NCBI RefSeq assembly: GCF_016937515.1
Contig: NZ_JAFHKM010000002.1
Coordinates: 2,227,001-2,291,000, forward strand
Reading direction: 5' to 3'
Length of the DNA stretch: 64,000 bases
Source of the DNA: Cohnella algarum
GTDB lineage: Bacteria; Bacillota; Bacilli; Paenibacillales; Paenibacillaceae
Positions within the stretch are counted from its first letter, which is position 1. Each line of letters opens with the position of its first letter. Shown piece by piece: positions 36,746 through 60,314 of the stretch. A program made the position numbers and the translations under genes. The notes beneath the pieces were generated by a model. It was not told where the DNA came from. It did no database searches and worked only from the letters and a program-made list of their open reading frames with translations.

Positions 36746-36774
36746 TTGACAACGGGAAGACGGAGGGTTACAGT
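36746..36774 (+). promoter_or_regulatory. SigmaA promoter of the NitT/TauT-hutP-hisD operon
   Basis: TTGACA (36746-36751), a 17-nt spacer, TACAGT (36769-36774). Start expected near 36781, so the transcript begins about 10 nt before the NAG triplets of the HutP-type antiterminator. The preceding stretch 36530-36745 shows no gene. Confidence 0.75.
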
Positions 36775-36791
36775 AAGAAATAAGTACAATA

Positions 36792-36866
36792 TAGTTGTTA
36801 GTTTATAGGATGTGCTTTAGAATTACAGGGAATTTGTCTCTGTTTTCTGGCACATTTTTATTTTTT
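36792..36866 (+). promoter_or_regulatory. HutP-type antiterminator A: UAG-N4-UAG-N4-UAG next to an intrinsic terminator
   Basis: Three TAG triplets at 36792-36794, 36799-36801 and 36806-36808 are separated by exactly 4 nt, as in the known HutP RNA target. The terminator stem starts 2 nt later: ATGTGC (36810-36815) pairs with GCACAT (36850-36855), with inner AGAA/TTCT and ACAG/CTGT helices, then TTTTTATTTTTT. HutP with histidine bound should block this terminator and let the transcript reach the binding-protein gene and hutP itself. The remaining leader, 36867-36982, holds no gene. Confidence 0.75.
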
Positions 36867-36982
36867 GTTAGGGGGGGATTTGTCGGAAGCTGTCGGCTTG
36901 GCCTGAAGGAAGTTGAACGCAACGAACAAACCGGAAACGAGACCCGAACTCAACTAAAAAACGATTGGAGTGGAGTACGCTG

Positions 36983-37999
36983 ATGAAGAAAAAGTGGTCG
37001 CTGCTTGCCGTAACGGGAATCGCTCTCGCCATGCTGTCCGCATGCGGCGGAGGAAATCAGGAGAATGCCTCCTCGTCGGGAACGGGCGAGAGCCCGAGCG
37101 CGAGCGCAGCGGCATCCGAAGAGACATTGACGTTCCAGATGGGCGTCGAGCCATGGGTCGGCTACGCTCCCTGGTGGATCGCGCAGGAGCAAGGCATTTT
37201 TGAAAAATACGGCCTGGACGTAACGGTCGTCAACTTCAACCAGGACTCCGACATCAACGCCGCCTTCGCGTCCGACAAAATCAAAGTCGCGAACATCGCC
37301 ACCCATACGGCAATCAAGATGGTGGGCAACAACAACCTCGCGCTGAACGGCATCATTCTGCTGGATGAATCGAATGAGGCGGACGCGATTCTCGCCGCCG
37401 GCAACGCCCAGAGCATCGCCGACTTGAAAGGGAAGAAGGTCGCCTTCGAGGAAGGGACGACTTCCGATCTGCTGCTTCGCCAGGCGTTGTCCGACAACAA
37501 TATGACGATCGACGATGTGGAGGTCGTCTACATGCCGGCCTCCGACGCGGGACTTGCGCTTCTGTCCGGCAATGTCGACGCCGCCGTCACGTACGAGCCT
37601 TACATCTCCACGGTCAAAGCCAAAGGCGACGTGCAAATGCTGTACTCTGGCGAGAACGCCCCGGGGCTGATCAGCGACTTGACCGTCATTAAATCCGAGT
37701 ACATGTCCGAGCACCCCGAGGTCAAAGACAAGCTGCGGCAAGTATGGGACGAGACGATGGCTTACTGGGAGAGCAACCCCGACGAAGGCAACCGGATCAT
37801 TGGCGAAAAGACGGGCGTCGACGTCGCCGAGCTTCCGGTCATCCTCGAAGGCCTGCGCTACTTTACGTCGGAGGATCAACTGCAGATGGCCGATTCCGGC
37901 GAGTTCCTGGAGACGGCCGCCAACATTCAAACCATCCTCACGAATCAGAAAGTGCTGGATCAGCAAGTAGATTTGAACCAGATGTTCCAGTTAAAATAA
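36983..37999 (+). CDS. NitT/TauT family ABC transporter substrate-binding lipoprotein
   Basis: 338 residues from ATG 36983 (GGAGTGGAG upstream). The signal MKKKWSLLAVTGIALAMLSAC ends in the LSAC lipobox. The mature part matches SsuA/ThiY-like proteins: WVGYAPWWIAQEQGIFEKYGLDV (about residues 59-81) and VKVANIATH..., LKGKKVAFEEGTTSDLLL. Relatives bind sulfonates, taurine, pyrimidine precursors and other small ring compounds. It opens an operon that contains hutP, the permease, the ATPase and hisD, behind a HutP-type terminator. I infer an imidazole compound as ligand. Confidence 0.88.
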   Translation: MKKKWSLLAVTGIALAMLSACGGGNQENASSSGTGESPSASAAASEETLTFQMGVEPWVGYAPWWIAQEQGIFEKYGLDVTVVNFNQDSDINAAFASDKIKVANIATHTAIKMVGNNNLALNGIILLDESNEADAILAAGNAQSIADLKGKKVAFEEGTTSDLLLRQALSDNNMTIDDVEVVYMPASDAGLALLSGNVDAAVTYEPYISTVKAKGDVQMLYSGENAPGLISDLTVIKSEYMSEHPEVKDKLRQVWDETMAYWESNPDEGNRIIGEKTGVDVAELPVILEGLRYFTSEDQLQMADSGEFLETAANIQTILTNQKVLDQQVDLNQMFQLK

Positions 38000-38006
38000 G
38001 AAAAAC

Positions 38007-38042
38007 GCCGTCTTCCGGCCGGGCCCTCGGAAGGAAGACGGC
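38007..38042 (+). promoter_or_regulatory. Intercistronic hairpin between the binding-protein gene and hutP
   Basis: GCCGTCTTCC (38007-38016) pairs perfectly with GGAAGACGGC (38033-38042). There is no T-run after it, so it is not an efficient terminator. Such hairpins often protect the 3' end of binding-protein mRNA and lower expression of the genes behind. Confidence 0.55.
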
Positions 38043-38063
38043 TATCGAGAGGGGATCAGGCCC

Positions 38064-38522
38064 ATGCACAGCGGATCGAGTACCTTCCCCGTCGGCAAGC
38101 TGGCGATATTGCTCGCGGTTCTCCAGGATCACGAATGGCGGAAGAGCGTCGAGCAGGAATTAATCGCGGGCGGCTATAAATTCACGATCGGTCGGGTCGG
38201 CGCGATGGATATGATGAAGGTCATTGCCGCCATCGAGACGGCGGCCAAGAACAACCGAATTATCGACAGCGAATCGTACCGCGAAGTGCATGCGGTCTAC
38301 CACGCCATTATCGAAGCTCTGCAGGGCGTGGGAAGGGGAGAGGTGCAGTTCGGCAATATTCTCCGTACGGTCGGCCTCACCTTCTCGATCGTCCGGGGCA
38401 AGTTCGCAAGCACCGTTCAGCATGAGGGAGAATGGGTGGCGGTCGCGGTTTACGGTACGATCGGAGCGCCCATCAAAGGCTTCGAACACGAAACCATCGG
38501 TTTTGGTTTTAATCATATTTAA
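38064..38522 (+). CDS. hutP: HutP, histidine-responsive RNA-binding antiterminator
   Basis: 152 residues, close to the 148-151 of Bacillus HutP. Conserved segments: GRVGAMDMMKVIAAIETAAK, SYREVHAVYHAIIEALQGV (His76 and His80, equivalent to the metal/histidine ligands His73 and His77) and the C-terminal YGTIGAPIKGFEHETIGFGFNHI (His142, cf. His138). HutP hexamers bind NAG-N4 repeats in RNA with L-histidine and Mg2+ and prevent terminator formation. GAGAGGGGAT lies upstream of ATG 38064. It is placed inside the transporter operon behind its own candidate target, so it should be autoactivated. In B. subtilis it precedes hutH directly. Confidence 0.95.
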   Translation: MHSGSSTFPVGKLAILLAVLQDHEWRKSVEQELIAGGYKFTIGRVGAMDMMKVIAAIETAAKNNRIIDSESYREVHAVYHAIIEALQGVGRGEVQFGNILRTVGLTFSIVRGKFASTVQHEGEWVAVAVYGTIGAPIKGFEHETIGFGFNHI

Positions 38523-38540
38523 TTTAATTGGGGGATGCCC

Positions 38541-39305
38541 GTGCGCAAATATACGCTGCTCTCCATCGCAAGCATCCTCGTCGTGCTCGCGGTATGGTCC
38601 ATCGTAACCTATTCCAAAATGATCGATCCGCTGTTCCTTCCTACGCCGGGCGCGACCCTGAACGCCCTGCGCGAAGAGATCGACGAAGGCATCTTCTTCA
38701 CGGACGTCGGCGTCAGCTTCTATCGCATTCTGATGGGCTTCGTCATCTCGACGATTTTCGCGGTCCCGATCGGCATGATGATGGCGACTTCGAAAACGTG
38801 GCAAGCGATTTGGGAGCCGCTGATCGGCCTCATCCGCTACATGCCGGCTGTCGCCTTCATTCCGCTGTCGATCCTGTGGTTCGGCACGAGCGATTTGCAA
38901 AAGTTTTTCATCTTGTTCCTCGGCGTCTTCTTCCAGGAAGTCATCATGATCGCCGACAACTGCAAAACCGTCAACAAGTCTCTCGTCGAAGTCGGCCATA
39001 CGCTCGGGTTCAGCAAGAGCGAGGTTACCCGCAGCATCGTTTTCCGCGCCGCCCTGCCCGGCATGGTCGACACGTTCCGGACGACATGGGGATGGGCCTG
39101 GACTTACCTGGTCGTGGCCGAGCTGGTCGCCGCCTCCGAAGGCCTCGGCTTCCGGATCATTCAGGCGCAACGCTACCTGAGCACCGACCGGATCGTCCTC
39201 GGCATTCTCGTCATCGGTCTGTTCGGCTTGATTACGGATCAGCTGTTTGCTTGGCTGTACCGCAAAATGTTCCCGTGGAAAATGTTGGAGAAAGCAAAGG
39301 GGTGA
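38541..39305 (+). CDS. NitT/TauT ABC transporter permease
   Basis: About 254 residues. I prefer GTG 38541, because GGGGG lies 6 nt upstream, while ATG 38535 directly touches that sequence. Six helices. The EAA loop appears as VEVGHTLGFSKSEVTRSIVFRAALPGM (about residues 151-177), the usual form in SsuC/TauC-type permeases. It follows hutP by 18 nt and precedes the ATPase by 6 nt, so these form the membrane and energising parts for the binding protein at 36983. Confidence 0.9.
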   Translation: MRKYTLLSIASILVVLAVWSIVTYSKMIDPLFLPTPGATLNALREEIDEGIFFTDVGVSFYRILMGFVISTIFAVPIGMMMATSKTWQAIWEPLIGLIRYMPAVAFIPLSILWFGTSDLQKFFILFLGVFFQEVIMIADNCKTVNKSLVEVGHTLGFSKSEVTRSIVFRAALPGMVDTFRTTWGWAWTYLVVAELVAASEGLGFRIIQAQRYLSTDRIVLGILVIGLFGLITDQLFAWLYRKMFPWKMLEKAKG

Positions 39306-39311
39306 CCGAAG

Positions 39312-40151
39312 ATGGCCTTGCAATTGGTTCAAGAGCACACCGCGGACAAGGAAACGATGCTGTACGCTGAAAACGTATCCAAGACGTTCGCGAGCAACAA
39401 GAAGGAGATCGTCGCCCTCGAGAGCGTTCATATCACGATCAAACGGGAAGAATTCGTCTCCTTGCTCGGCCCGTCCGGCTGCGGCAAATCGACCTTCCTT
39501 CGGCTGGTCGCCGGGCTGGACGAAAAGACCGACGGCGTTTTGACGCTGAACGGAACGCCGATCGTCGGCTCGGGACGGGATCGCGGCGTCGTGTTTCAGC
39601 AATACAGCTTGCTTCCGTGGATGCATGCCTGGGAGAATGTCGCGTTCGCCTTGAAGAAGTCGAAGGGGCTGAGCGCCGCCCAGAAGAAGGAAATGGCGCA
39701 TCACTTTCTGGAGCTGGTCGGCCTGAAGGGCTTCGAGAACCATTATCCGGCCCAGATGTCGGGCGGCATGCAGCAGCGCGTCGCGATCGCCCGGGCGCTT
39801 GTCTATCGGCCGAAGCTGCTGCTGATGGATGAGCCGTTCGGCGCGCTGGACGCTCAGACCCGCCGCGATATGCAGGATTTGCTCATGCGCATCCGGCAGG
39901 AGGAGAAGTGCAGCGTGCTGTTCGTCACTCACGACGTGGATGAGGCCATTTACCTGTCGGACCGCGTTTATATGATGAGCGCGCATCCGGGCCGGATCGC
40001 GAAGGAATTGACGATCGACATCCGCAAGCCGCGCGACTGGAACGACATGCTCTCCGACCGGTTCGTCCATTACAAGCGGGAAATCGTATCTGAACTGGAA
40101 CGGCAGAAATCGCTCAAGCACCAAGCCCTTCAGGCTAAGACTTCAACGTGA
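39312..40151 (+). CDS. NitT/TauT ABC transporter ATP-binding protein
   Basis: 279 residues. Walker A GPSGCGKST (about residues 54-62), Q-loop FQQYSLLPW, signature MSGGMQQRVAIARAL, Walker B LLLMDEPFGALD and the H-loop FVTHDVDEAIYLSDR are all intact. SsuB/TauB-like, with a C-terminal tail of ~25 charged residues. It follows the permease by 6 nt and is 14 nt from hisD. It powers uptake by the transporter whose binding protein and permease share this operon. Confidence 0.93.
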   Translation: MALQLVQEHTADKETMLYAENVSKTFASNKKEIVALESVHITIKREEFVSLLGPSGCGKSTFLRLVAGLDEKTDGVLTLNGTPIVGSGRDRGVVFQQYSLLPWMHAWENVAFALKKSKGLSAAQKKEMAHHFLELVGLKGFENHYPAQMSGGMQQRVAIARALVYRPKLLLMDEPFGALDAQTRRDMQDLLMRIRQEEKCSVLFVTHDVDEAIYLSDRVYMMSAHPGRIAKELTIDIRKPRDWNDMLSDRFVHYKREIVSELERQKSLKHQALQAKTST

Positions 40152-40165
40152 CGAGGTGAATGAAG

Positions 40166-41440
40166 ATGTTGAAGATCGTGGGAAGACACGAACTGAACGC
40201 CGCCCAGGCCGAGGCCGGAGCGGCCGGGCAGGAACGCCGGGAGGCCGTCCTGCACATAATAGAAGAAGTCAGGCGCGACGGCGATGCGGCCCTGCTCCGG
40301 CTGACCGAGAAGTACGACCGGGTGGCGTTGCCGCGGCTGGCGGTGACGGAGGAAGAATTCGCGGAGGCGTACCGGGCGCTCGATCCGGACGTGCTGGACG
40401 CGCTTCGGCAAGCGATCGCCAACGTTCGCGACTACCATGAGCGCCAGATGCGGGAGTCGTGGATGACGACGAAGGAGAGCGGCACGATCATGGGGCAGCT
40501 TATTCTTCCGCTGGAGCGGGTCGGGCTGTACGTGCCGGGAGGAACGGCGGCTTATCCGACCTCCGTCATGATGAACGCCGTTCCCGCGCTCGCGGCCGGC
40601 GTGAAGGAGATTGTCATGACGACGCCGCCCGGCAAGGACGGCAAGGTGAACCCGGCCGTGCTGGCCGCCGCCGCGGAGCTCGGCATCCGCGAGGTGTTCA
40701 AGGTCGGGGGAGCGCAGGCGATCGCCGCTCTCGCGTACGGCACGGAAACGATCCGCAGAGTCGACAAAATCACGGGCCCGGGGAACGCGTTCGTCGCGGC
40801 GGCCAAGCGGGAAGTGTTCGGGCAAGTGGCGATCGACATGATCGCGGGGCCGAGCGAAGTCGTCGTGCTGGCCGACGAAACGGCCGACGCCGCCTACGTC
40901 GCCGCCGATCTGCTCGCCCAGGCGGAGCACGATCCGCTCGCTTCCGTGACGCTCGTGACGACGTCCCGGTCTCTGGCCGAAGAAGTGCGGCGGGAGGCCG
41001 CGACCCAGCTCGAGGGGCTGGACCGGCGGGAGATCGCCGCGAAGGCGCTGGAGAGCTACGGCGCGATCTGCGTCGCGGCGAGCCTCGAGGAGGCGATCGA
41101 GATCGTCAACGAGCTGGCGACGGAACATCTTCAGATCCAGATTCGGGATCCGTTCGCGCATCTCGGCGCCATCAAGCATGCGGGAGCGATCTTCATCGGC
41201 GACGACAGTCCCGTCGCGATCGGAGATTACTTCGCAGGCACGAATCACGTGCTGCCGACGGGCCGGACGGCGCGGTTCTCTTCGGGGCTGTCCGTCGACG
41301 ACTTCCTGAAGAAAACGAGCTTCGTCCGCTACAGCCGCCGGGACATGCTCGAGAACGGGCGCCAAATAGCGGCCCTGGCCCGATTCGAGGGCTTGCAGGC
41401 GCACGCCCGGTCGGTCGAGCTCCGGCTGGAGCGCTCCTGA
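40166..41440 (+). CDS. hisD: Histidinol dehydrogenase
   Basis: 424 residues from ATG 40166, preferred over ATG 40160 because GAGGTG is then 7 nt upstream. HisD converts L-histidinol to L-histidine with 2 NAD+. Active-site residues are present: His255 in AQAEHDPLA, Glu320-His321 in ATEHLQI and His361 in GTNHVLPTG; the zinc-site and [14 protein letters not shown] motifs are intact. It is last in the transporter-hutP operon and followed by a terminator, with no other biosynthetic his gene nearby except hisC, hisB and a hisJ-like gene further on. A catabolic role (histidinol to histidine for Hut) is therefore likely. Confidence 0.93.
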
Positions 41441-41524
41441 GGCCGCGAAGCTTGCGTTTCTCTGTTCCGTTCTCTCGCTTCGTTAGCGGCGCGCAACCGA
41501 GCAGTCTTTCGCCGGGCGGCCGAG

Positions 41525-41560: not shown

Positions 41561-41565
41561 ATCGT

Positions 41566-41594: not shown

Positions 41595-41701
41595 TGCTTT
41601 CGGCCTTCCTTGGCCCAACTTGATTCTTTGCCGCTTGGTCGGGCAGCGGCCCGACAGGCGATTCCCCAACGACTGACAGACGGACAACAGCATCGGCCAT
41701 T

Positions 41702-41754
41702 TAGCGATTAGTGATTTAGAAAGCCGGTACCTCGGTTAGGTATGGGCTTTTTTT
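41702..41754 (+). promoter_or_regulatory. HutP-type antiterminator B upstream of hutH
   Basis: TAG at 41702-41704 and 41709-41711 (4-nt gap) and at 41717-41719 (5-nt gap) directly precede an intrinsic terminator. Its AAGCC arm (41721-41725) pairs with GGCTT (41745-41749) and GTACCT (41727-41732) with AGGTAT (41738-41743), followed by seven T residues. A further TAG sits in the loop side. It is equivalent to the B. subtilis hut terminator, though one gap is 5 rather than 4 nt. Confidence 0.7.
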
Positions 41755-41778
41755 CATTATCGTAAAGCAGGTGATCCA

Positions 41779-43338
41779 ATGCTCACAACGGCCGAACTTG
41801 CCATACGCATCGACGGACGGTCCTTGACGGTCGAGGACGTCGTCCGCGTCGCCCGACACGGGTGGAAGGTGATTCTCGACGAAGGCAGCATGCAAGCGAT
41901 GCGGCGCACGCGGGATTACGTAGAGAAGCTCCTGCGGGAGAAAAGAGTGGTGTACGGTCTGACGACCGGCTTCGGCAAATTCAGCGACACCTATATATCG
42001 GCGGAGGATGCCAAAGCGCTTCAGCTGAACCTGATCCGCAGCCATGCGTGCGGCATCGGCCGTCCGTTTGCGGTCGAGATCGTCCGCGCCATTATGCTGC
42101 TGCGCATCAACGCGCTCGCGCTCGGCTACTCCGGCATTCGCCCCGAGGTCGCGGCGCTGATGGCGGAGATGCTCAATCGCGGCGTCACGCCCGTCATTCC
42201 CGAGCAGGGCTCGCTGGGCGCGAGCGGCGATCTGGCGCCGCTGTCCCATCTGGCGCTCGTGCTCGTCGGCGAGGGCGAAGCCTATTTCGAAGGCGCGCGG
42301 CGCTCCGGGGCGGAAGCGCTGGCCAAGGCCGGGCTGGTCCCGATCTCGCTGGAGGCGAAGGAGGGACTCGCGCTGATCAACGGCACGCAGGTGATGACGG
42401 CCGTGGGGGCGCTTGCCTGCTGGGACGCGAAGCGTCTTGCCGAATGGGCCGATTGCGCGGTGTCGCTAACGAGCGAAGTGCTGCACGGCGTGAGGGACGC
42501 GTTCGACGACGCGACCCACGCCATTCGTCCGCATCGCGGGCAGCGGCAGTCGGCCGCGCGAATACGCAGCATCACGGCGGGAAGCAAGCTGATGACGCAC
42601 CAGGGAGAGCGACGCGTCCAGGACGCGTACTCGCTGCGCTGCGCCCCGCAAGTGCACGGGGCGAGCCGCGACGCGATCGCCTACGTGGAGGAGAAGCTGG
42701 AGATCGAGATCAATTCGGCGACCGACAACCCGCTCATTTTCGCGGACGAGGATCGCGTCATCTCCGGCGGCAACTTCCACGGACAGCCGATCGCGCTGGC
42801 GATGGACCATCTGGCCATCGGCGTTTCCGAGCTGGCGAACATCTCCGAACGCCGGATCGAGCGGATGGTGAATCCGCATCTGAACGAGAACCTGCCTCCT
42901 TTTCTGACGAACAACGGAGGCGTCGAATCCGGCTTTATGATCGCCCAGTACGCGGCCGCTTCGGTCGTCTCGGAGAACAAGTCGCTCGCTCACCCGGCCA
43001 GCGTCGACTCCATTCCGTCCTCGGGCAACCAGGAGGACCACGTCAGCATGGGCACGATCGGGGCGAGGAAGGCGAGGCAGATCGTCGACAACGCGTACAA
43101 CGTGCTGGCCATCGAGCTGCTGTGCGGGTCCCAGGCGGCCGATTTCCGCGATCCGGCGTCGCTGGGCGCGGGAACGGCGTGGCTGTACCGGCAGGTGCGC
43201 GACCGGGTTTCGTTCGTGGATCGCGACCGCGTCCTGTCGGGCGACTTCAAAACGATCTCCGATTGGATGAGAAGCGAGAGCTCGCTCGACGGGCTGTTCG
43301 AACGGCTCGGGCCGCAAGGCGCACAGCCGCCGGAATGA
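41779..43338 (+). CDS. hutH: Histidine ammonia-lyase
   Basis: 519 residues (508 in B. subtilis). It deaminates L-histidine to urocanate. The autocatalytic MIO cofactor forms from Ala148-Ser149-Gly150 in SLGASGDLAPLSH. Other conserved parts: YGLTTGFGKF at about 59-68 and VHGASRDAIAYVEEKLEIEINSATDNPL with the substrate-binding residues. It is preceded by a HutP-type antiterminator and a terminator, and separated from hutU by a 318-bp GC-rich spacer. Start ATG 41779 follows AGCAGGTGAT. Confidence 0.97.
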   Translation: MLTTAELAIRIDGRSLTVEDVVRVARHGWKVILDEGSMQAMRRTRDYVEKLLREKRVVYGLTTGFGKFSDTYISAEDAKALQLNLIRSHACGIGRPFAVEIVRAIMLLRINALALGYSGIRPEVAALMAEMLNRGVTPVIPEQGSLGASGDLAPLSHLALVLVGEGEAYFEGARRSGAEALAKAGLVPISLEAKEGLALINGTQVMTAVGALACWDAKRLAEWADCAVSLTSEVLHGVRDAFDDATHAIRPHRGQRQSAARIRSITAGSKLMTHQGERRVQDAYSLRCAPQVHGASRDAIAYVEEKLEIEINSATDNPLIFADEDRVISGGNFHGQPIALAMDHLAIGVSELANISERRIERMVNPHLNENLPPFLTNNGGVESGFMIAQYAAASVVSENKSLAHPASVDSIPSSGNQEDHVSMGTIGARKARQIVDNAYNVLAIELLCGSQAADFRDPASLGAGTAWLYRQVRDRVSFVDRDRVLSGDFKTISDWMRSESSLDGLFERLGPQGAQPPE

Positions 43339-43656: not shown

Positions 43657-45321
<1,665 letters not shown>

Positions 45322-46613: not shown

Positions 46614-46693
46614 GCGCCCGGCGGGAGAAGAAGCGGAATTCGCCGCCGGCCGGCAAAGCGCGAACGGGGCCGCGAAGGGAGGCGCCGCGATGA
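46610..46693 (+). CDS. Tiny basic reading frame bridging hutI and the M20 gene
   Basis: 27 codons, ATG 46610 overlapping the hutI stop (ATGA) and its own stop overlapping the M20 start. GGAGG lies 8 nt before it. The peptide (MSARREKKRNSPPAGKARTG...) is very basic and has no recognisable fold. It may serve only to carry ribosomes from hutI to the next start. Expression is unproven. Confidence 0.3.
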   Translation: MSARREKKRNSPPAGKARTGPRREAPR

Positions 46694-47946: not shown

Positions 47947-47959
47947 GGGGAGCATGCCG

Positions 47960-50489: not shown

Positions 50490-50524
50490 GCCGTCTGGAC
50501 CAAGAAGAGAGGGGACGGAAGAAA

Positions 50525-51673: not shown

Positions 51674-51711
51674 GCGCCGTCCGCGTTTTGGGGAAGGGGG
51701 CAGGGAAAACC

Positions 51712-53249
51712 GTGAGCCGCGCGATCATAGTCGACGCAAGCACAAGCGCGATCAAAAGCTATTTGTACGACCTGGACGCGGGCATGGCGCTCGCGCACGC
51801 CCAGACGGACGTTCCGATGAGCGTGCCGGAACCCGGAGCCGCCGAGGTCGATGCGGAGCTGTGGTGGGACGGCCTGTGCCGGACGGTGTCGGAGCTGACG
51901 GCGCGGAATCCGGACGCGGCTTCCGGTCTGGCGGCCGTCGCCGTGACGAACCAGCAAATCTCCTGCGTCTTCCTTGACGGGGAGGGAAAGCCGGTCGCTC
52001 CGGCTTATTTGTGGATGGATACCCGCTGCACGGAAGAGATCGACCGACTGCGGATGCGGTGCGAGCTGGAGGGCCTGGGCACGGACTGGATTTTCGAGAC
52101 GACGGGCATCCCCCCTTCCGACAGCTGGGGACTGGCGAAGCTGCTCTGGTTCCGGTCCCGCTTACCGGAAGCGTACGGGCGCATCCGGCGCGTCGCTTCG
52201 GTGGACGCCTTCCTGCTAGGCCGGCTGAGCGGCCGGTTCGTCACCGACGAGACGAACGCCTGCTTCTTCCATATGGATATTCGAAGCCGGCAGCCCGCTT
52301 GCGAGCTGCTTCGCTTTCTGGAGACAGACCCCGGCCTGTTCCCGGATATCGTGGCGCCCGGAACCGTCGTCGGCGTCGTAACGCGGGAGGCGGCGGCGCG
52401 AACCGGTCTGCCGGAAGGGCTGCCGGTCATCGCCGCCGCTTCGGATCAGCCGTGCGCGCTACTGGGCATGGGAGCCGTCGTCCCCGGCGAAGCAGTCGTC
52501 AACCTGGGGACCGGGACGTTCTTTATGACGCCGCTTGCGTCGCCCATCGTCGACGCCCGGATGATGACGAACATCTCGGCCGCCCCGAATTCGTGGCTGA
52601 TGATGGGCACCCATTATCTGACCGGAGGGGCGATGAGCTGGCTGCGCGGCCTGCTCGGGCCCCGGGCGCCGGAGGAGCCGGGTCCGAGCGGGCGCCCGCG
52701 GTCTCGTTCGACGAGCTGAGCCGGCTGGCCGCGGACACGGAGCCGGGCGCGAACGGGCTTGTGTTCCTGCCGGGCCTCAGCGGCACCGGAACGCCGCGCT
52801 GGGATCCCGAGGCCCGCGGCCTGTTCGCGGGCCTCGGGCTCGGCCATACCGCCGGCCATCTGGCGCGGGCGGTCATGGAAAGCACGGGCTACGGCGTCCG
52901 CAGCATCCTGAACGCCTTCGCGGAGATTGGCATCTCCTTCGACAAGCTGATCATCTCGGGCGGGCCGACTTCGTCGGATGTCTGGCGGCAGGCGCTGGCC
53001 GACGTTTTGCAGCGTCCGCTGACGCTGTCGACCGTGCGCGAGGCGACTCCGCTCGGAGCCGCCATGCTGGCCGCGGTCGCCTGCGGCCGGTTCGCGGAGC
53101 CGGCGGAGGCGGTGCGCCGCTGGGCGGGCGAACAGACGGCCGTCCTGCCGAGGGCGGAGTACCGGGAGACGTACGACCGCCTGTACGCCGCGTACGAGGC
53201 CTGGTCCGACGCGGAGGCGGCCGTGCGTCGCCTGGTTCGTCCGCAATGA
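51712..53249 (+). pseudogene. FGGY family carbohydrate kinase, split by one-base frameshift
   Basis: A kinase of ~512 residues in two frames. The first, from GTG 51712 (alternatively ATG 51670, which overlaps the previous stop), holds IVDASTSAIKSYLYD, AVAVTNQQISC, WMDTR and VVNLGTGTFFMTPL. The second, from ~52683, holds FLPGLSGTGTPRWDPEARG, IISGGPTSSDVW and the ATPase end. One base is missing near 52681. FGGY kinases phosphorylate a hydroxyl on polyols or sugars, such as glycerol or xylulose. Here it would supply the phosphate required by HisB. Homology is good on both sides of the break, so a sequencing error is plausible. Confidence 0.75.
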
Positions 53250-53289
53250 CGAACGGTTGATTCGCATAATGAAAGGGAAGGAAGCCGCC

Positions 53290-54402
53290 ATGGAGAAAAA
53301 ACCGAAAATCGTCGTCGTCGGGGACGAGTTGTTGTCCCCCGAATTTCTGGCCGAAAGCTTTTTGCCTTTCGCAAGCGCCGGGTGGGAGGTCGTCCCGTTC
53401 CGGTTCGGCCCGCCCACGCTTCACGAGTTGGACGAGCTGCTGCTCGTGCTGGAGCGGGACGGCCCCGACGCCGTTCAGGCGCCCGAGGGGCTGGAGCCGC
53501 TGCTTTCCGACGCCGAGCTGCTCGTCGTTCATATGTGCCCGGTCGGCGCTTCTCTGCTCGAGCGCAACCCGCAGTTGCTCGCGGTCGGCGTGCTGCGCGG
53601 CGGCTACGAGAACGTCGATGCGGCGGCTGCCGAAGCGCTCGGCATTCCGGTCGTCCATACGCTCGGCCGCACGTCGGAGGCCGTCTCCGACTTTGCCGTC
53701 GGGCTGATGCTGGCGGAGATGCGCAACATCGCCCGGTGCCACGCGCAGATTCGCGCCGGCGGCTGGCCGAAGGAGTTCCCGAATTCCGGACGCATTCCGG
53801 AGATGAGGGAGCTTGCGGTCGGCATCGCCGGCTTCGGCGAGATCGGCCGGCTCGTCGCGAAGAAGCTGGGCGGCTTCGGCTGCCGCGTTCTCGCGCATGA
53901 TCCGTACGTGCCGGAAGCCGCGATCCGCGGAGCCGGCGCCGAGCCGGCGAGCTGGGAGGCGCTGCTCGCCGAGAGCGACGCGCTGACCTTGCATACGCGC
54001 CATTCCGCGGGCAGCCCGCCGCTGCTCGGCGCGGACGAACTGGCCCGGATGAAGCCGGGCGCGTATTTGGTCAATACGGCGCGGGCGGGGCTGGTCGACA
54101 TGGAGGCGCTGGCCGCCGCGCTGCGGGACGGACGTCTCGCGGGCGCCGCGCTCGACGTTTTCGACGCGGAGCCTCTTCCGCCCGGGCATCCGCTGCTCGC
54201 CCTGGAAAACGTCACGTTGACGAGCCATATCGCCTTCGACACCGAGGCGTTCTACAAGCGTTCCCCCATCCTGTGGCGGGAAGGCATGAACCGGCTGCTG
54301 GCCGGCTCCGACCGGCGCGTCTGGATCAATCAGACGGCGCTTGCCGGCGAGCGGCTTGCGATGCTGGAGCGGCTCTGGATGCCGTCGGCGGCCGCGAAGT
54401 AA
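53290..54402 (+). CDS. D-isomer-specific 2-hydroxyacid dehydrogenase (first of two)
   Basis: 370 residues from ATG 53290 (AAGGAAG upstream). NAD-binding GIAGFGEIGRLVAKKL (about residues 178-193). Catalytic Arg in NTARAGLVD, Glu in FDAEPLPPGHP and His in TSHIAFD are present. Family substrates include lactate, phosphoglycerate, glyoxylate and erythronate-type acids. The unusually long N-terminal part (~120 residues) and C-terminal extension distinguish it from the second copy at 58874. It may interconvert an imidazole-lactate/pyruvate pair or a polyol acid. Confidence 0.85.
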   Translation: MEKKPKIVVVGDELLSPEFLAESFLPFASAGWEVVPFRFGPPTLHELDELLLVLERDGPDAVQAPEGLEPLLSDAELLVVHMCPVGASLLERNPQLLAVGVLRGGYENVDAAAAEALGIPVVHTLGRTSEAVSDFAVGLMLAEMRNIARCHAQIRAGGWPKEFPNSGRIPEMRELAVGIAGFGEIGRLVAKKLGGFGCRVLAHDPYVPEAAIRGAGAEPASWEALLAESDALTLHTRHSAGSPPLLGADELARMKPGAYLVNTARAGLVDMEALAAALRDGRLAGAALDVFDAEPLPPGHPLLALENVTLTSHIAFDTEAFYKRSPILWREGMNRLLAGSDRRVWINQTALAGERLAMLERLWMPSAAAK

Positions 54403-54404
54403 GG

Positions 54405-54475
54405 CCTCCGCAATCCGGTAAGCCGGCTCGCGGAGGAAGAAAGGGTTAGGCCGGGGCGCCCTTTGGGCTCCCGGC
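54405..54475 (+). promoter_or_regulatory. Two intercistronic hairpins
   Basis: CCTCCGC (54405-54411) with GCGGAGG (54430-54436), then GCCGGG (54450-54455) with CCCGGC (54470-54475). No T-run follows, so these look like mRNA processing or stability elements rather than terminators. Confidence 0.4.
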
Positions 54476-54498
54476 TAAGAAGGAGGGCGACGGCCGCG

Positions 54499-56064
54499 AT
54501 GAAAAAGGTGGCGATCATAGGCAGCAGCGGCGGCAACCTCTTCCATTCGGGAGGAGGCGATCCGGCCCGCTTGCTCGGCGAGATCGCCGAACAATGCCGA
54601 TCGGCGGACATCGCCGTCGAAGCCGCCCTGTTTATCGCCGCATCGGGCTCCATGGACTACCGGGGAGCGGCGTCGGCCAGGGCCGAGCTGTACGAATGGG
54701 ACGAGGGCTCCCGGGCTTTCCGGCGGGCCATGGAGGGCAGCCTGGGCGAGGCGAACCGGCAGGCCGCGATCGCGGACGCGGAGATCGCCGGGCGCATCGA
54801 GGAGGGCCGAATCGACGGCCTGATCCTGATGAGCTGCGATCCCCTCGGCGTCAATCGCGCGTCCGTCGAGGCGGCGGTCCGGCGCAAGCTCCCGATCGTC
54901 GGGACCGGGGGCACCTCGATGGGCCGGATCAAAGCGATGGGCGCGAACGTCGTTTCATTGTCCGGCACGACCGGCACGACCAACCTGACCCGGGCGGTCT
55001 CGTTCGTCATCGCCTTGAGCCGCCATTGGAAGCTGCCTTATCGGATGGCGGGAACGAAGACGCTTGGGCAAGCCCGGATCAGCGGCGTGCTGTCCTCGGC
55101 GATGCCCGCCTTCATCGCCGTTCTGCTGCTGATGTCCGCCGCCAGGCTGCCGGCGCTGTCGGGCTTGGAGGAGGCGGCCGCGGCGCTGTCCGCGCTTCCC
55201 GGCGTCGTGCTTGCCATTTTCGCGGCCCGCCGGCTCTCGGATCTGGGGGAAGCGACGCTGATCGCGGGCGCCGTCTGCGGCTTGCTTTGCGTCAGCGCCG
55301 GCATTATCGGCGCCGCACTCGGAGGCTTGGCGGCGGGCTGGCTCGTGCCGCGGCTGTTTCAGCTCTTCGTGCGGAGCGGCTTTCCGGCGACGACGGTCAA
55401 CATCGCCGCGGGCGCGCTTTCCGGACTGGCACCGGGGCTGCTGCTCTTCTTCGCCGCGGGGACGTATACGTCCGCCGCAGGCGACGCCGTCCGGCATGCG
55501 CTCGAATGGACCGTCGGGCTGAGCCCCGTTGCCGTCGGCGCCGTTTTCGGCCTCGCCATGTGGCCTCTCATCCTGAAAGGCTGGTACCATGTCGCGGTTT
55601 TGCCGCTTATTCTGATCGAGATGGAGCGTTACGGCAACAGCTTGATCGGAGCGCTCGATATGGCCGGGCTGGTGATGGTGTCCGCCGGCATCCTGCTGGC
55701 GCAGCTGGCGGTTCCGCCGAATCCCGGCGAGCGCCGCGTCGTGCTCAAGCCGCTGTGGCTGAACGTCGGCTTCGGCACCTTCATCGAGGCTTCCTACGTT
55801 TACATGCGCAAGAGCAGGGCGGTCTACGCCGGGGCGGTCGTCGCATCGGGACTGGCCGGGGCCGTCGTCGGCGGGCTGCATTTGCGGTCGACCGCCTACG
55901 TTCCGTCGTATCTGGCGGTGCTCTTCAGCAACGATGCCGCCGGATTTCTCGTCGCCATGTTGACCGGGCTGCTGGCGGCTTTCATCGTAGGGACATGCGT
56001 CAATTGGGCAAGCAGAAGAACCGCTCCGGAATCCGGGCCGAGCAACCGCAAAGGGGACATGTAA
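54499..56064 (+). CDS. Fusion of an N-terminal soluble domain and a PTS EIIC-like membrane domain
   Basis: 521 residues from ATG 54499. Residues ~1-195 form a Rossmann-like soluble domain (KKVAIIGSSGGNLFHSGGGDP..., LILMSCDPLGVNR, PIVGTGGTSMG). Residues ~215-510 contain 9-10 helices (FIAVLLLMSAA..., GLAPGLLLFFAAGTY, FGLAMWPLILKGWYHVAVLPLILIEME). The membrane half resembles fructose-family PTS EIIC proteins in pattern, but no EIIA or EIIB motif with a phosphorylatable Cys or His is apparent. I infer a transporter or sensor for the pathway substrate. Low certainty on family; the two-part structure is clear. Confidence 0.55.
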   Translation: MKKVAIIGSSGGNLFHSGGGDPARLLGEIAEQCRSADIAVEAALFIAASGSMDYRGAASARAELYEWDEGSRAFRRAMEGSLGEANRQAAIADAEIAGRIEEGRIDGLILMSCDPLGVNRASVEAAVRRKLPIVGTGGTSMGRIKAMGANVVSLSGTTGTTNLTRAVSFVIALSRHWKLPYRMAGTKTLGQARISGVLSSAMPAFIAVLLLMSAARLPALSGLEEAAAALSALPGVVLAIFAARRLSDLGEATLIAGAVCGLLCVSAGIIGAALGGLAAGWLVPRLFQLFVRSGFPATTVNIAAGALSGLAPGLLLFFAAGTYTSAAGDAVRHALEWTVGLSPVAVGAVFGLAMWPLILKGWYHVAVLPLILIEMERYGNSLIGALDMAGLVMVSAGILLAQLAVPPNPGERRVVLKPLWLNVGFGTFIEASYVYMRKSRAVYAGAVVASGLAGAVVGGLHLRSTAYVPSYLAVLFSNDAAGFLVAMLTGLLAAFIVGTCVNWASRRTAPESGPSNRKGDM

Positions 56065-56065
56065 G

Positions 56066-56908
56066 ATGACGCTTAAATGGGACGGCCATACGCATACGCG
56101 ATTCTGCTATCACGGCAATCCGGCCGAGCTGACCGAATACGTGGACCGGGCCGTCGCGCTCGGCTTCGAACGCTACTCGGTGACGGAGCATCCGCCGCTG
56201 CCCGACCGCTGGGTTCGCGACGAGAAGCTGATGGCGGAGCTGGCCATGCCGCCGGAAGAGCTTCCGGCGTATATCGAATACGCGCTGCGGACGAAAGACC
56301 GCTACGCGGGGAAAATCGAGCTCGCGGTCGGACTGGAGATGGACTATCTGGACGGCAGCGAAGCGTTCTCCGACCGGCTGCTGGAGCCGTATCTCGACGT
56401 TCTCGAGGACGCCGTCGTTTCCGTGCACTTTCTTCCCGGGCGGGATGGCATGCACTGCGTCGATTTCACGGCGGAGGACTTCCGCACCAATCTGCTCAGC
56501 TACTACGGCACGATGGACAAGGCGGCGGAGGAATACTTCGATCACATCGAGAAATCGATCGCCTGGGCCGCCGGGCTGCCGATGCGCAAACGAATCGGCC
56601 ACCCGCTGCTCATCGAGAAGTTTTCGCGCGAGCTGCCCCCGATCGACCCGGCGCTGATCCGCCGTCGGCTGGAGCGGATCGCCCGCCGGCTCGCCGAGTT
56701 CGGCGTCGGCGTCGACGTCAATACGGCGGGGCTGCGCGTCGCAACCTGCGGGAAGCCTTACGCTCCCGCTTGGTTCGTCCGCGAGTGCCTTGCCCGCGGC
56801 GTCGAGGTCGTCTACGGCTCGGATTCGCACAAGCCGGAGCAGGTCGGCTTCGGGTACGACTACTTCCGCCAGGTCATAGAGGGGGGCGCTTCGGATGAGG
56901 CTGACTGA
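56066..56908 (+). CDS. hisJ: Histidinol-phosphatase, PHP family (HisJ/HisK-like)
   Basis: 280 residues. PHP metal motifs: KWDGHTHTRFCYHG at the N-terminus, SVTEHPPLP (about 50-58), VGLEMDYLDG (about 93-102), VVSVHFLPG, and YGSDSHKPEQVG at the C-terminus. All are typical of the HisJ family, which hydrolyses L-histidinol phosphate to L-histidinol. AAAGGGGA lies 8 nt before ATG 56066. The gene starts 1 nt after the membrane protein stop and overlaps the next gene by 14 bp. Other PHP phosphatases have different substrates, so the specific call relies on the hisB/hisC/hisD context. Confidence 0.8.
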   Translation: MTLKWDGHTHTRFCYHGNPAELTEYVDRAVALGFERYSVTEHPPLPDRWVRDEKLMAELAMPPEELPAYIEYALRTKDRYAGKIELAVGLEMDYLDGSEAFSDRLLEPYLDVLEDAVVSVHFLPGRDGMHCVDFTAEDFRTNLLSYYGTMDKAAEEYFDHIEKSIAWAAGLPMRKRIGHPLLIEKFSRELPPIDPALIRRRLERIARRLAEFGVGVDVNTAGLRVATCGKPYAPAWFVRECLARGVEVVYGSDSHKPEQVGFGYDYFRQVIEGGASDEAD

Positions 56909-58091
56909 AGCCGAACGACGGCTGCTGGACGGCATCGAGGGGGAGCGGCTGACCGATCTGCTGAAACGGCTGGTGCAGGCAAACAGCGAAAATCCGACGG
57001 GCACCGAGCGGGCCGTCGCGGAGATCGTCGCGGCGGAATTGGAAGCGGCGGGGCTGCGGGTCGAGCGGCAGCCGGTGGAGCGGGATCGCTTCAACGTGAT
57101 CGCCGGGCTCGAGGGCAGCCGGCCGGAACGGCTGCTGTTCAACGGCCATATGGATACGGTGCCGGCCGGCGATCTCGGCCTGTGGACGGACGATCCGTGG
57201 GCGGCTGCCGTCCGGGACGGCAAGCTGTTCGGCCTCGGATCGGCGGACATGAAAGCAGGCGTGGCGGCGATGATCGAGGCCATCCGGGCGCTGAGCCTTA
57301 GCGGCGCTTCGTTCGAGCGGGGGCTGCTGTTTACGGCCGTCGTCGACGAGGAGGTCGGCTTCAAGGGGACGAAGGCGCTGCTGGCGGAGGGCAAGCTGGC
57401 GAATTGCGAGATGGCGTGCGTCTCGGAGCCGACCGGCCTGCGGATCGGCAACCGGCTGAAGGGCGCTCTGGAGTTTTCCGCCCGAACATCCGGGCGCAGC
57501 GCGCATACGGGCATCGCCTTCGCGGGCGACAACGCGATCTACAAGATGGGCAGGTATCTGGAGGAGCTTCGCAGGTATAACGACGCGCTGAAGGAGCGGG
57601 CGGACGACGCCGACCTGCGCTACCCGACCGTCAACGTCGGCAAGGTGTCCGGAGGCGTCGGCGTTACGCTCGTGCCCGACCGCTGCGAGCTGGAGTTCGA
57701 CCGGCAGGTATTGCCGGGCGAGACGATGGAGGCGGCCGAGAGGGAAATCCGCGAGCTGACCGAAGCGTTCTCGCGGCGGGAAGGCTTAGACGTCGAGCTG
57801 ATCCTGCGCCAGAAGTTCGACAACTGGTCGGTTGCGGATTCCGAGGCCGTCGTGCGCGGACTGGCCGGCGCGCTTCGCGACCTGCACGGCGCGGAGCCGG
57901 AATACGCCGGCTTCAACGGGTACGCGGAAGTCGAGCTGCTGGCCGCGGCGGGCATCCCGTCGGTGCTGTACGGTCCGGGCACGCTCGACACGGCTCACGC
58001 TCCGAACGAGTTCGTCCCGCTGGACGAAGCGCTGGCGGCCGCCAAGGCTTACGCCCTGTGGGCGTACCGTTTTATGACGGCGGCCGTCTGA
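56895..58091 (+). CDS. M20 family peptidase/deacylase (ArgE/DapE/ACY1 type)
   Basis: 398 residues. Metal-site motifs: LLFNGHMDTVPAGDLGLW (about residues 80-97), FGLGSADMKAGVAAM and VVDEEVGFKGTKALL with the catalytic Glu pair; a dimerisation domain is inserted at about 195-310. Enzymes of this branch remove N-acyl groups from amino acids or hydrolyse dipeptides. It overlaps the PHP gene by 14 bp. It might release histidine, histidinol or glutamate from an acylated or peptidic form. The next element is a HutP-type terminator. Confidence 0.85.
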   Translation: MRLTEAERRLLDGIEGERLTDLLKRLVQANSENPTGTERAVAEIVAAELEAAGLRVERQPVERDRFNVIAGLEGSRPERLLFNGHMDTVPAGDLGLWTDDPWAAAVRDGKLFGLGSADMKAGVAAMIEAIRALSLSGASFERGLLFTAVVDEEVGFKGTKALLAEGKLANCEMACVSEPTGLRIGNRLKGALEFSARTSGRSAHTGIAFAGDNAIYKMGRYLEELRRYNDALKERADDADLRYPTVNVGKVSGGVGVTLVPDRCELEFDRQVLPGETMEAAEREIRELTEAFSRREGLDVELILRQKFDNWSVADSEAVVRGLAGALRDLHGAEPEYAGFNGYAEVELLAAAGIPSVLYGPGTLDTAHAPNEFVPLDEALAAAKAYALWAYRFMTAAV

Positions 58092-58125
58092 CCGTTTTCA
58101 TTTTCGTCATACCGGAAAAGCTTGT

Positions 58126-58204
58126 TAGCCATAAGCGATTAGAAGAAAGCTTTTCAAAGGGCAAGCCCGCCGGCGCGCGGGTCCCTTTAGGCTTTCTTTT
58201 TTTT
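58126..58204 (+). promoter_or_regulatory. HutP-type antiterminator C upstream of hisB
   Basis: Four NAG triplets at 58126-58128 (TAG), 58133-58135 (AAG), 58140-58142 (TAG) and 58147-58149 (AAG) have perfect 4-nt spacing. The last overlaps the 5' arm of a long terminator: AAGAAAGC (58143-58150) pairs with GCTTTCTT (58191-58198), AAAGGG (58156-58161) with CCCTTT (58183-58188) and CCCGC with GCGGG, followed by eight T residues. HutP bound to the triplets would block pairing and allow hisB expression. This is the clearest of the three sites. Confidence 0.8.
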
Positions 58205-58245
58205 GCGTTTTCATCCGGCAATCAACCATAAGGGAGAGATTCGAA

Positions 58246-58845
58246 TTGAGCGATGCGAGAGCAAGGGAAGCCTCCCGCCGCAGGCAGACGGGAGAGACCG
58301 ACGTATCGGTCGCGTTCAACCTGGACGGAGAGGGCGCCTGCGACATCGAATCCGGCGTTCCGTTTCTGGACCATATGCTGCACCTGTTCGCGGTTCACGG
58401 AAGGTTCGATCTGTCGGTTCGGGCGAACGGGGACACGGAGATCGACGACCATCATACGGTGGAGGACATCGCGATCGTGCTTGGCGGCTGCCTGCTGGAG
58501 GCGCTTGGCGACAAACGGGGCATTCGGCGCTACGGCAACGCGTTCGTTCCGATGGACGAGACGCTTGCCCAGGTCGTCGTCGACGTCAGCAACCGCCCGC
58601 ATCTCGAATACCGCGCCGCCTATCCGTCCCGGGAGACGGGCCGCTTTCAAACGGAGCTCGTGCACGAATTTCTGGCGAAGCTGGCGGCCGAAGGGCGCAT
58701 CGCGCTGCACGTCATCGTCCATTACGGGCGCAATACGCATCATATGATCGAGGCGGTGTTCAAGGCGCTCGGACGGGCGCTGAACGAAGCGGCAAGCCGC
58801 GAGCCGGGGCGGACGGACGTCCCTTCCTCCAAAGGCTTGCTCTGA
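58246..58845 (+). CDS. hisB: Imidazoleglycerol-phosphate dehydratase
   Basis: 199 residues from TTG 58246 with GGGAG about 8 nt upstream. Both manganese-binding motifs are intact: DDHHTVED (His69, His70, Glu73) and NTHHMIEAVFKALGRAL (His165, His166, Glu169), and FLDHMLHLFAVHG is conserved. It dehydrates imidazole-glycerol phosphate to imidazole-acetol phosphate. It is monofunctional, without the E. coli phosphatase domain. Placed behind a HutP-type antiterminator and next to a 2-hydroxyacid dehydrogenase rather than in a his biosynthetic operon. Confidence 0.94.
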   Translation: MSDARAREASRRRQTGETDVSVAFNLDGEGACDIESGVPFLDHMLHLFAVHGRFDLSVRANGDTEIDDHHTVEDIAIVLGGCLLEALGDKRGIRRYGNAFVPMDETLAQVVVDVSNRPHLEYRAAYPSRETGRFQTELVHEFLAKLAAEGRIALHVIVHYGRNTHHMIEAVFKALGRALNEAASREPGRTDVPSSKGLL

Positions 58846-58873
58846 CCAACGGGACAACAAGGGGGAACCTGCG

Positions 58874-59851
58874 ATGCTGAACGGTAAAAAGCTGGTCTGG
58901 ATTTTGGATGACGAATGGACCGACCATTCGGTGGAAAAAGCCATATACGAGGCTAACGGGTTCGCGGTCAAGGTGACGACCTCCGGGACGCTGGCCGAGG
59001 ATACGGCGCTGTACGCGCCCCATGCGGACGGCGTCGTCGCGCAGGTCGGCTTCCCGTGCGGGGCGGAGCTGATCGGGCGGCTGAGCTGCTGCAAATCGAT
59101 CGCCGTCTCGGGGGTCGGCTTTAACCACGTCGATCTGGAGGCGGCGACCCGGCAAGGCATCATCGTCGCGAACGTTCCGGATTATTGCCTTGAGGAGGTG
59201 TCGGATCATGCGGTGGCGCTGATGCTCGCCCTGTCCAAGCGGCTTGTTGCCTACCACAACCAGGTTCGCGCCGGGGACTGGGATCCGCTCGACACGCTGC
59301 CGATCTATCGGTTCAGGGATCGGACGGTCGGCCTGCTCGGCTTCGGACGCATCTCCCGCAGGGTGGCCGAGAAGCTGAAGGGCTTCGGCGTCAGGATCGT
59401 CGCGCATGACGCCTATGTGGAAAGCGGCGTTTTCGCCGCTTACGGCGTCGAACCGCTCTCGTTCGAGGAACTGCTGCAACGTTCGGACATTCTGAGCCTG
59501 CACGTGCCGCTGACGCCGGAGACGAAGGAATTGCTGACGTACGAGCGGATGAAGACGATGCCGCGGGGAGCGATTCTGGTGAACACGTGCCGCGGAGGCG
59601 TCGTGCGGGAGGCGGATTTGCGCAGGCTGCTGGTGGAGGGCCATCTGGCTGGAGCCGGTCTGGACGTGCTGACGGAGGAACCCCCGCGACCGAACCACCC
59701 GCTGATCGGGCTGGAGCAGACGCTGGTAACGCCGCATTCGTCCTACGTGTCCGTCGAATCGGTGCTAGAGTTGAAGCGGCGGACGTGCCAAATCGTCATC
59801 GAAGCGGCCGCGGGCAAGGAGCCGGCCAATTCGCTCAATCGTCCGGCATGA
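58874..59851 (+). CDS. D-isomer-specific 2-hydroxyacid dehydrogenase (second)
   Basis: 325 residues. NAD-binding GLLGFGRISRRVAEKLKGFG (about residues 155-174); catalytic Arg in NTCRGGVVREADL, Glu in LTEEPPRPNHP and His in TPHSSYVSVES. More like phosphoglycerate dehydrogenase/CtBP proteins than the copy at 53290. GGGGGAAC precedes ATG 58874. It shares a transcript with hisB, so its expression would also require HutP. Substrate unknown. Confidence 0.87.
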   Translation: MLNGKKLVWILDDEWTDHSVEKAIYEANGFAVKVTTSGTLAEDTALYAPHADGVVAQVGFPCGAELIGRLSCCKSIAVSGVGFNHVDLEAATRQGIIVANVPDYCLEEVSDHAVALMLALSKRLVAYHNQVRAGDWDPLDTLPIYRFRDRTVGLLGFGRISRRVAEKLKGFGVRIVAHDAYVESGVFAAYGVEPLSFEELLQRSDILSLHVPLTPETKELLTYERMKTMPRGAILVNTCRGGVVREADLRRLLVEGHLAGAGLDVLTEEPPRPNHPLIGLEQTLVTPHSSYVSVESVLELKRRTCQIVIEAAAGKEPANSLNRPA

Positions 59852-60025
59852 GAGTTTGCGGAGGAGAGGAGGCGGATCCAACGAGCCGGATCGAACGGGA
59901 GGTTTCCGGCAAGGATGGCTTAGCGTAGAGGTTGTTCAGGCGGAACGGCGGCGGAGACCGCCTTCCAACCCGCAGCTTCCGCAGTATGCGGCGCGGAACT
60001 GCGCCTGGCGCGCGAGCACGGCACG

Positions 60026-60301
60026 GTGGAGGTAGAGACGACCGAATTCACGCTGCTGAACGGGGATGCTCTACCCTTCCGGGGCGGAATTCGGCATGCT
60101 ATGTCGGTGCCGGACTATTTTCCCGGTAATGACGGAGAAGTGATCGCGTACGAAGCGGTGGCGATCGTCGCTCCGGAAATCGTGCTGGCCGAAGAAGGCC
60201 AACTGACGTTCGAAGCGAAGATGATCACCCCAAAATTGACCATGTACCCGGTACCATACAAAATCAACAATCCTTCGAGGATTCAAAAGGTCGGCCCCTG
60301 A
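60026..60301 (+). pseudogene. Degenerate partial copy of the OB-like protein gene at 35682
   Basis: From about 60095 the sequence closely follows the 3' part of the gene at 35682-36506: VPDYFPGNDGEVIAYEAVAIVAPEIVLAEE... then LTFEAKMITPKLTMYPVPYKINNPSRIQKVGP. About 16 codons are missing between two similar GAGCTGGGCGAG/GAGCTTGCCGAA-like stretches, as if lost by slippage. Similarity continues through the terminator. The N-terminal domain and linker are absent. The stretch 59852-60094 upstream shows only weak traces and no gene. Confidence 0.7.
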
Positions 60302-60314
60302 GCGGGGCCTTTTT
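60293..60314 (+). terminator. Intrinsic terminator, duplicated copy
   Basis: GGCCCC (60293-60298), loop TGAGC, GGGGCC (60304-60309) and TTTTT. It is the same element as at 36498-36529 and is the first terminator after hisB and its partner. Confidence 0.85.

Follow-up and report, generated by a model that had tools for sequence, protein, structure and literature searches.

Within a 64,000-nt stretch of the genome of the soil bacterium Cohnella algarum (contig NZ_JAFHKM010000002.1, positions 2,227,001 to 2,291,000 of the forward strand; hereafter the window), we identified a gene island, encoded on a single strand (+, window positions 36792–59851), that combines genes for histidine utilization (hut) with genes of histidine biosynthesis (his). 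The island is probably a histidine-inducible catabolic system in which imidazole compounds are converted to L-histidine and then to glutamate. We further lean toward a more specific reading, a previously undescribed catabolism of imidazole polyols in which an FGGY-family kinase would act on imidazole glycerol and HisB, HisC, HisJ and HisD would pass the product to the Hut enzymes, with hisB under a HutP antitermination switch. On sequence evidence, we identify a HutP-type hut core, second copies of hisD, hisC and hisB that are evolving apart from the biosynthetic ones, a hisJ gene, and three predicted elements in which NAG triplets are followed by a terminator.

The island begins with an attenuator and ends with a 2-hydroxyacid dehydrogenase gene (HADH2). 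Between them lie, in order, genes for a substrate-binding protein, HutP, a permease, an ATPase, HisD, HutH, HutU, HutI, an M20 hydrolase, a HutF-like amidohydrolase, HisC, a GldA-type dehydrogenase, the FGGY kinase, another 2-hydroxyacid dehydrogenase (HADH1), a membrane protein, HisJ, an ArgE/DapE-type deacylase and HisB. An original prediction, made from the letters of the sequence, had placed hutH, hutU and hutI together with hisD, hisC, hisJ and hisB between 36746 and 60314, along with an FGGY kinase, a glycerol-dehydrogenase-like enzyme and transporters. Pfam and NCBIfam searches recovered every one of these, all on the + strand. Overlooked in the prediction were hutP, two M20 hydrolases, the HutF-like amidohydrolase, two 2-hydroxyacid dehydrogenases, three attenuators and two frameshifts.

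Each of the seven Hut and His enzymes exceeds a function-specific NCBIfam cut-off (scores in bits, followed by the cut-off; this and all further island features are on the + strand). These are histidinol dehydrogenase (hisD, 40160–41440; TIGR00069, 557.6/243.8), histidine ammonia-lyase (hutH, 41779–43338; TIGR01225, 721.7/539.15), urocanate hydratase (hutU, 43657–45321, start approximate; TIGR01228, 1013.2/375), imidazolonepropionase (hutI, 45342–46613; TIGR01224, 496.4/298.15), histidinol-phosphate aminotransferase (hisC, 49392–50489; TIGR01141, 332.1/276.55), a PHP-type histidinol phosphatase (hisJ, 56066–56908; NF005996, 243.2/133; PDB 3dcp, 3.5e-46) and imidazoleglycerol-phosphate dehydratase (hisB, 58246–58845; NF002115, 309.6/289). 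Alignments of HisB, HisJ, HisD and HisC to solved enzymes cover most of their length. Residues 3–199 of the island HisB align to PDB 8qav and 4qnk and contain the stretches DHML, DDHH..ED, DE, N-HH and PSSKG, which we take to be the active-site motifs. For the island HisD, solved HisD chains outrank sulfopropanediol 3-dehydrogenases. The hutP gene (38064–38522; PF09021, 1e-31) encodes an L-histidine-dependent antiterminator that aligns with solved HutP (PDB 4ok9, 2.3e-46) across most of its length.

A complete his operon (hisZ-hisG-hisD-hisB-hisH-hisA-hisF-hisIE), read from the open reading frames, lies outside the window in the 6.2-Mb, two-contig source genome. The island his genes are therefore second copies and not the only ones in the genome, the alternative that the original prediction had named against itself. 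The genome also encodes two further HisC-like proteins (43–44% identity), another HisJ-family phosphatase and a single HutH (at 1e-60). Identity to the his-operon copy is 68% for the island HisB and 56–57% for the island HisD. We searched the window by tblastn (E 1e-3) with the HisZ, G, D, B, H, A, F and IE proteins encoded by this genome. The only matches were to HisD, to HisB and, weakly, to HisH; the last, at 31010–31324, falls within a class-I amidotransferase outside the region. Thus hisG, hisE, hisI, hisA, hisH and hisF are missing from the region, as had been predicted.

In phylogenetic trees, the five island HisB sequences form one fork (support 97/100), as do six hut-linked HisC sequences (100/100) and, with weaker support, seven hut-linked HisD sequences (85/77), in each case apart from the ordinary copies. 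Separate ancestry, proposed earlier as a check on all three proteins, thus holds well for HisB and HisC and is weakly supported for HisD. Two more HisD paralogues in the same genome (L035 and L036; G000:C2:2680485–2681681 and 5027157–5028365; 46% and 37% identity) sit on very long branches and may not be HisD, since sulfopropanediol dehydrogenases belong to the same superfamily.

Predicted HutP-type control of hisB is the strongest argument for catabolism. We scanned the whole window on both strands for NAG triplets at set spacing, at least two of them TAG, followed by a hairpin of −8 kcal/mol or lower and a T run. This strict scan returned exactly three matches, at 36792, 41702 and 58126. The first element (36792–36866), TAG-N4-TAG-N4-TAG followed by a hairpin and T run, precedes the ABC transporter (fold of 36780–36872, −22.1 kcal/mol, z −3.4); the second (41702–41754) precedes hutH (fold of 41695–41758, −21.6, z −3.3); and the third (58126–58204) stands directly before hisB (fold of 58108–58202, −35.1 kcal/mol, z −2.3). 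Across ten hut loci (335,468 nt, one strand) the scan gave 17 matches, located before the transporter (7), hutH (7), hisB (2) and hutI (1, in genome G010, 1.1 kb away); 20 first-order Markov copies of the same set together produced 3. Control loci (381,726 nt, both strands), which included five ordinary his operons and 13 orphan-hisB neighborhoods, gave none. The hutH element (TAG-N4-TAG-N4/5-TAG plus terminator) occurs in all nine loci with a HutP match and was not seen in four hut loci lacking one, G289b (by eye and scan) and G315, G272 and G001 (by scan). The hisB leaders of all five islands described below contain a terminator with a GGCTTTC-like closing arm and a T run. No T-box or other Rfam element reached its gathering score in the window or at the genome's own his operon.

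As described in an excerpt of PMC7430163, HutP requires L-histidine and Mg2+, binds NAG repeats and prevents termination. From this activity, and from the likeness of the window HutP to solved HutP, the attenuator predicts that the island hisB is probably induced by histidine. Histidine-loaded HutP would bind the three elements and let transcription through, and hisB would be made when histidine is plentiful, the opposite of what biosynthesis needs.

The predicted switch bears on the idea that the island serves histidine synthesis, either as a salvage or back-up route from imported imidazole glycerol or histidinol or by providing a second hisB that resists triazole-type HisB inhibitors. Histidine is indeed the end product of the chain, one genome may have no HisC besides that of the island (see below), and a duplicated drug target can confer resistance. 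We nevertheless judge this idea improbable: the his genes sit with hutH-U-I, the genome has a complete his operon elsewhere, and histidine is the signal on which HutP relieves termination, the wrong sign for biosynthesis. The catabolic role assigned in the original prediction gains support from that operon, from the separate HisB and hut-linked HisC clades, from synteny and from the attenuator before hisB.

HisB enzymes act on imidazole-glycerol phosphate. With hisG to hisF absent, the island HisB would need another supply of this substrate, and the FGGY kinase (about 51670–53249; PF00370/PF02782) is the sole island candidate for making a polyol phosphate. We therefore propose that imidazole glycerol or a related imidazole polyol is taken up and that the kinase phosphorylates imidazole glycerol to imidazole-glycerol phosphate. 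HisB, HisC, HisJ (or another phosphatase) and HisD would then convert this to histidine, which the Hut enzymes convert to glutamate. The GldA-type polyol dehydrogenase (50519–51673, start approximate; NF006941, 378.1/336; PDB 1kq3, 1.2e-86) passes the cut-off of a glycerol dehydrogenase subfamily. This enzyme and the 2-hydroxyacid dehydrogenases may adjust related imidazole polyols; for GldA and HADH1 (53257–54402; PF02826, 5.1e-54), this could mean correcting stereochemistry or opening longer side chains. Side entries into the route may include histidinol through HisD, imidazole lactate or pyruvate through HADH2 (58874–59851; PF02826, 2.6e-56), a candidate imidazole-lactate dehydrogenase, together with HisC, and N-acylated forms through the deacylase (56895–58091; TIGR01910, 260.6/217.6).

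Using tblastn with 21 window queries, we found that four of the 393 other genomes of the family (labeled G035, G034, G025 and G289) carry an almost complete island with its order unchanged, a repetition of gene order beyond what chance would give. G289 belongs to another genus, so the order has been kept over two genera, which answers the concern that the clustering might not be conserved. Kinase orthologues (1e-80) occur in 5/394 family genomes, exactly those five that have an island HisB among the 20 genomes with two PF00475 matches, and in 1/398 genomes of the class, this one being the source genome itself. The hisB, kinase, GldA and HADH1 genes occur together in all five full islands, and hisJ in four. 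When 14 gene pieces were compared with G035 and 13 of these also with G025, ratios of nonsynonymous to synonymous substitution rates (dN/dS) ranged from 0.07 to 0.32 in 26 of the 27 cases; the remaining one, HADH2 versus G025 at 0.62, was left out because the match was HADH1, making it a paralogue pair.

The window copy carries two frameshifts, in the amidohydrolase near 48565 and in the kinase near 52.7 kb (about 52700). Both genes are unbroken single frames in the four relatives, and the frameshifts may be sequencing errors or early decay. In a further genome of the same genus, G023, a HisJ gene (70% identity) adjoins a 75-residue piece of the membrane protein (L053:6666–7807), perhaps the remnant of a lost island. 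Frameshifts, a truncated deacylase in G034, the missing hisJ of G025 and this possible remnant are what one would expect if duplicated his genes had piled up beside hut by chance or passively and were now decaying. Such an origin fits poorly with the shared order over two genera, with the dN/dS values in 14 pieces and with the conserved regulatory elements, and of the readings considered we give it the least credence.

We compared eight further HutH loci (G011, G289b, which is a second locus of G289, G301, G010, G030, G315, G272 and G001), leaving out HutH-like loci at 32–38% identity. G011 and G289b contain the hut core with the amidohydrolase and M20 hydrolase and no his gene, indicating that both hydrolases belong to the hut core. 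The G301 locus combines the transporter, HutP, HisD and the hut core; that of G010 combines the transporter, HisD, HutH, HutU and the deacylase, with HutI and HutP nearby; neither has hisB or the kinase in the stretch compared. G315 and G272 contain HutH, HutU and HutI, and G001 contains HutH alone. The G030 locus has a transporter, HutP, the hut core, HisC and HADH2, with no hisB or hisD in 20 kb (the genome is 78% complete). There, hisC and the 2-hydroxyacid dehydrogenase end the hut operon (L208, 11510–13593), making this a candidate for imidazole-lactate utilization. Where they accompany hut without hisB, hisD and hisC seem to provide distinct ways in, for histidinol in the one case and probably for imidazole lactate or pyruvate in the other. 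Among the hut loci compared, the full islands alone contain GldA, the kinase, HADH1, the membrane protein, HisJ and HisB.

This modularity raises the possibility of a multi-entry scavenging island with a main function other than an imidazole-polyol route, in which HisD takes in histidinol, HisC with HADH2 takes in imidazole lactate or pyruvate, and the deacylase takes in N-acyl derivatives, while the kinase and GldA share the operon by position alone and handle an unrelated polyol, and HisB is a bystander or of minor importance. The loci of G301, G010 and G030 contain such parts and, in the stretches compared, neither hisB nor the kinase, and GldA and FGGY kinases are families of ordinary polyol and sugar enzymes. 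We find this account plausible enough to keep in view and on balance unlikely: the five full islands unite hisB, the kinase, GldA and HADH1 (four of them with hisJ), a combination that none of the eight other hut loci shows; a separate attenuator of HutP type stands before hisB; and imidazoleglycerol-phosphate dehydratase, on general knowledge of its specificity, would be too specific to be of use with a plain polyol. For the single linear imidazole-polyol route of the original prediction, the outcome is mixed. The confinement of six genes to full islands favors it; the occurrence of HisD and HisC with hut in the absence of hisB, the lack of HisJ in G025 and the sole HisC of G289 speak against a strictly linear scheme.

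Several observations weigh against the imidazole-polyol reading. The presence of HisD and HisC with hut and without hisB means that the full chain need not be in use. The islands vary: G025 lacks hisJ, so other enzymes may contribute to the phosphatase step, and retains only a fragment of HADH2; G289 lacks HADH2; and the G034 deacylase is truncated. The island HisC of G289 is the sole HisC-like match in that genome at 1e-50 and may therefore also serve biosynthesis there. The genomes are few and come from one family, so that co-occurrence is not independent, and two window genes, those for the kinase and the amidohydrolase, carry frameshifts; this rarity (five genomes, one family) and the two frameshifts limit our confidence. 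Long-branch warnings accompany the HisD and HisC trees. Strict NAG spacing upstream of hisB is found in two of the five islands (the window and G289); in the G034 and G035 leaders, one of the spacers between the three NAG triplets is 6 nt long, and that of G025 has a degenerate middle triplet. Covariation in the hisB leaders is weak (5 sequences, 24 predicted pairs, 4 changed on both sides), and the strict scan misses the transporter element of G034 and the hutH elements visible by eye in G010 and G011. The kinase of G035, which is intact, reaches none of the listed NCBIfam equivalog cut-offs (XylB, 289.4/380.25; GlpK, 206/590.35). Any natural supply of imidazole glycerol is hypothetical at present, and among the matches listed in open-access full texts and a few subscription journals there was no report of imidazole-glycerol catabolism. 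The same literature matches contained no report of a hut-linked hisB or of hisB in a hut operon. The hut core and the single enzyme families are known; their combination and the HutP-type control of hisB appear to be new.

Other searches addressed the kinase and the membrane protein. A profile search of contigs with the kinase alignment matched three Cohnella contigs (C. xylanilytica DSM 25239, C. thermotolerans DSM 17683 and Cohnella sp. AR92) and two Clostridiales kinases at 29–30% identity. The membrane protein (54463–56064) has a soluble N-terminal part, matched no Pfam family and is weakly PTS-IIC-like (TIGR01996, 8.8e-05, 21.3 bits against a cut-off of 559.3). It was found in 39/394 family genomes, and distant relatives of it occur outside the full islands. 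We set it aside as a guide to the substrate: in the seven non-hut loci extracted its neighbors differ from those in the island, and at one of them they include an FGGY kinase and a GntP permease.

We also examined second hisB genes outside the islands. Two PF00475 matches occur in 20/394 genomes, the five islands and 15 others; of the latter, 13 have a divergent full second HisB (45–50% identity to the window HisB), G348 has a fragment and G313 has none. As parallels to the island these were rejected. Searched by tblastn with the 21 island queries, the 13 neighborhoods (among L158–L164 and L165–L177; two lie on short contigs, 4.7 and 13.4 kb long) yielded no matches beyond HisB and generic ABC ATPases, and they look like unrelated orphans; Pfam was used to name the neighbors at one of the 13.

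Among the remaining genes, the ABC transporter (36965–40151) consists of an NMT1/SsuA-type substrate-binding protein (36965–37999; PF09084, 5.3e-21; TIGR01728, 137.7 bits, below the cut-off of 163.5), a permease (38535–39305; PF00528; TauC-like, below cut-off) and an ATPase (39312–40151; PF00005). The HutF-like amidohydrolase (47954–49287) is split by its frameshift into 47954–48568 and 48565–49287, with PF01979 in both halves; the intact G035 protein scores below the equivalog cut-offs for HutF, formimidoylglutamate deiminase (255/362 and 198/413.05). The M20 hydrolase of the hydantoinase/carbamoylase type (46690–47946; TIGR01879, 373.8/204) passes the cut-off of an allantoate-amidohydrolase subfamily (NF006771, 431.5/399), so its assignment to the last Hut step, N-formylglutamate to glutamate, is one that we infer from its place in the gene order. 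A glycerate kinase gene lies directly past the end of the island on the − strand (60382–61755).

Enzymes that make histidine and those that break it down normally work against each other and are under opposite regulation. If hisB does lie behind a terminator switch that histidine activates, catabolism would plainly have recruited half of a biosynthetic pathway, and imidazole polyols would be indicated as natural nutrients. The combination of the kinase, an island hisB and a HutP attenuator would serve as a genome marker for finding such islands. It also urges caution, as labeling every copy of hisB, hisC, hisD or hisJ biosynthetic can be wrong.

The Bacillus subtilis hut operon is a HutP-controlled hutH-U-I-G, in which hutG encodes formimidoylglutamase. 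The island shares with it HutP, the NAG-repeat element with its terminator, and HutH, HutU and HutI. It differs in having the ABC transporter and hisD before hutH; hisC, the kinase, hisJ and hisB after the hut genes; extra attenuators before the transporter and hisB; and the amidohydrolase and M20 hydrolase at the place of hutG, a family not found among the island open reading frames, to which the Pfam scan for it was confined. Ergothioneine degradation, as named in NCBIfam, offers another parallel, which we rejected: the M20 hydrolase resembles ErtE (430.5 of 520) and HutU is related to thiourocanate hydratase (717 of 930), both below cut-off, whereas HutH and HutU pass the ordinary Hut cut-offs. 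With the second half of a his biosynthetic operon, the island has in common the HisB, HisC, HisJ and HisD families, all over their cut-offs; in contrast to such an operon, it lacks hisG, E, I, A, H and F, stands in a hut context, has separate HisB and HisC clades and carries HutP-type elements, of which the five ordinary his operons scanned have none. Histidinol can be utilized through HisD, as in Arthrobacter histidinolovorans. The hisD beside hut in G301 and G010 would suffice for this, whereas the full island adds HisB, HisC, HisJ and the kinase, all superfluous for histidinol.

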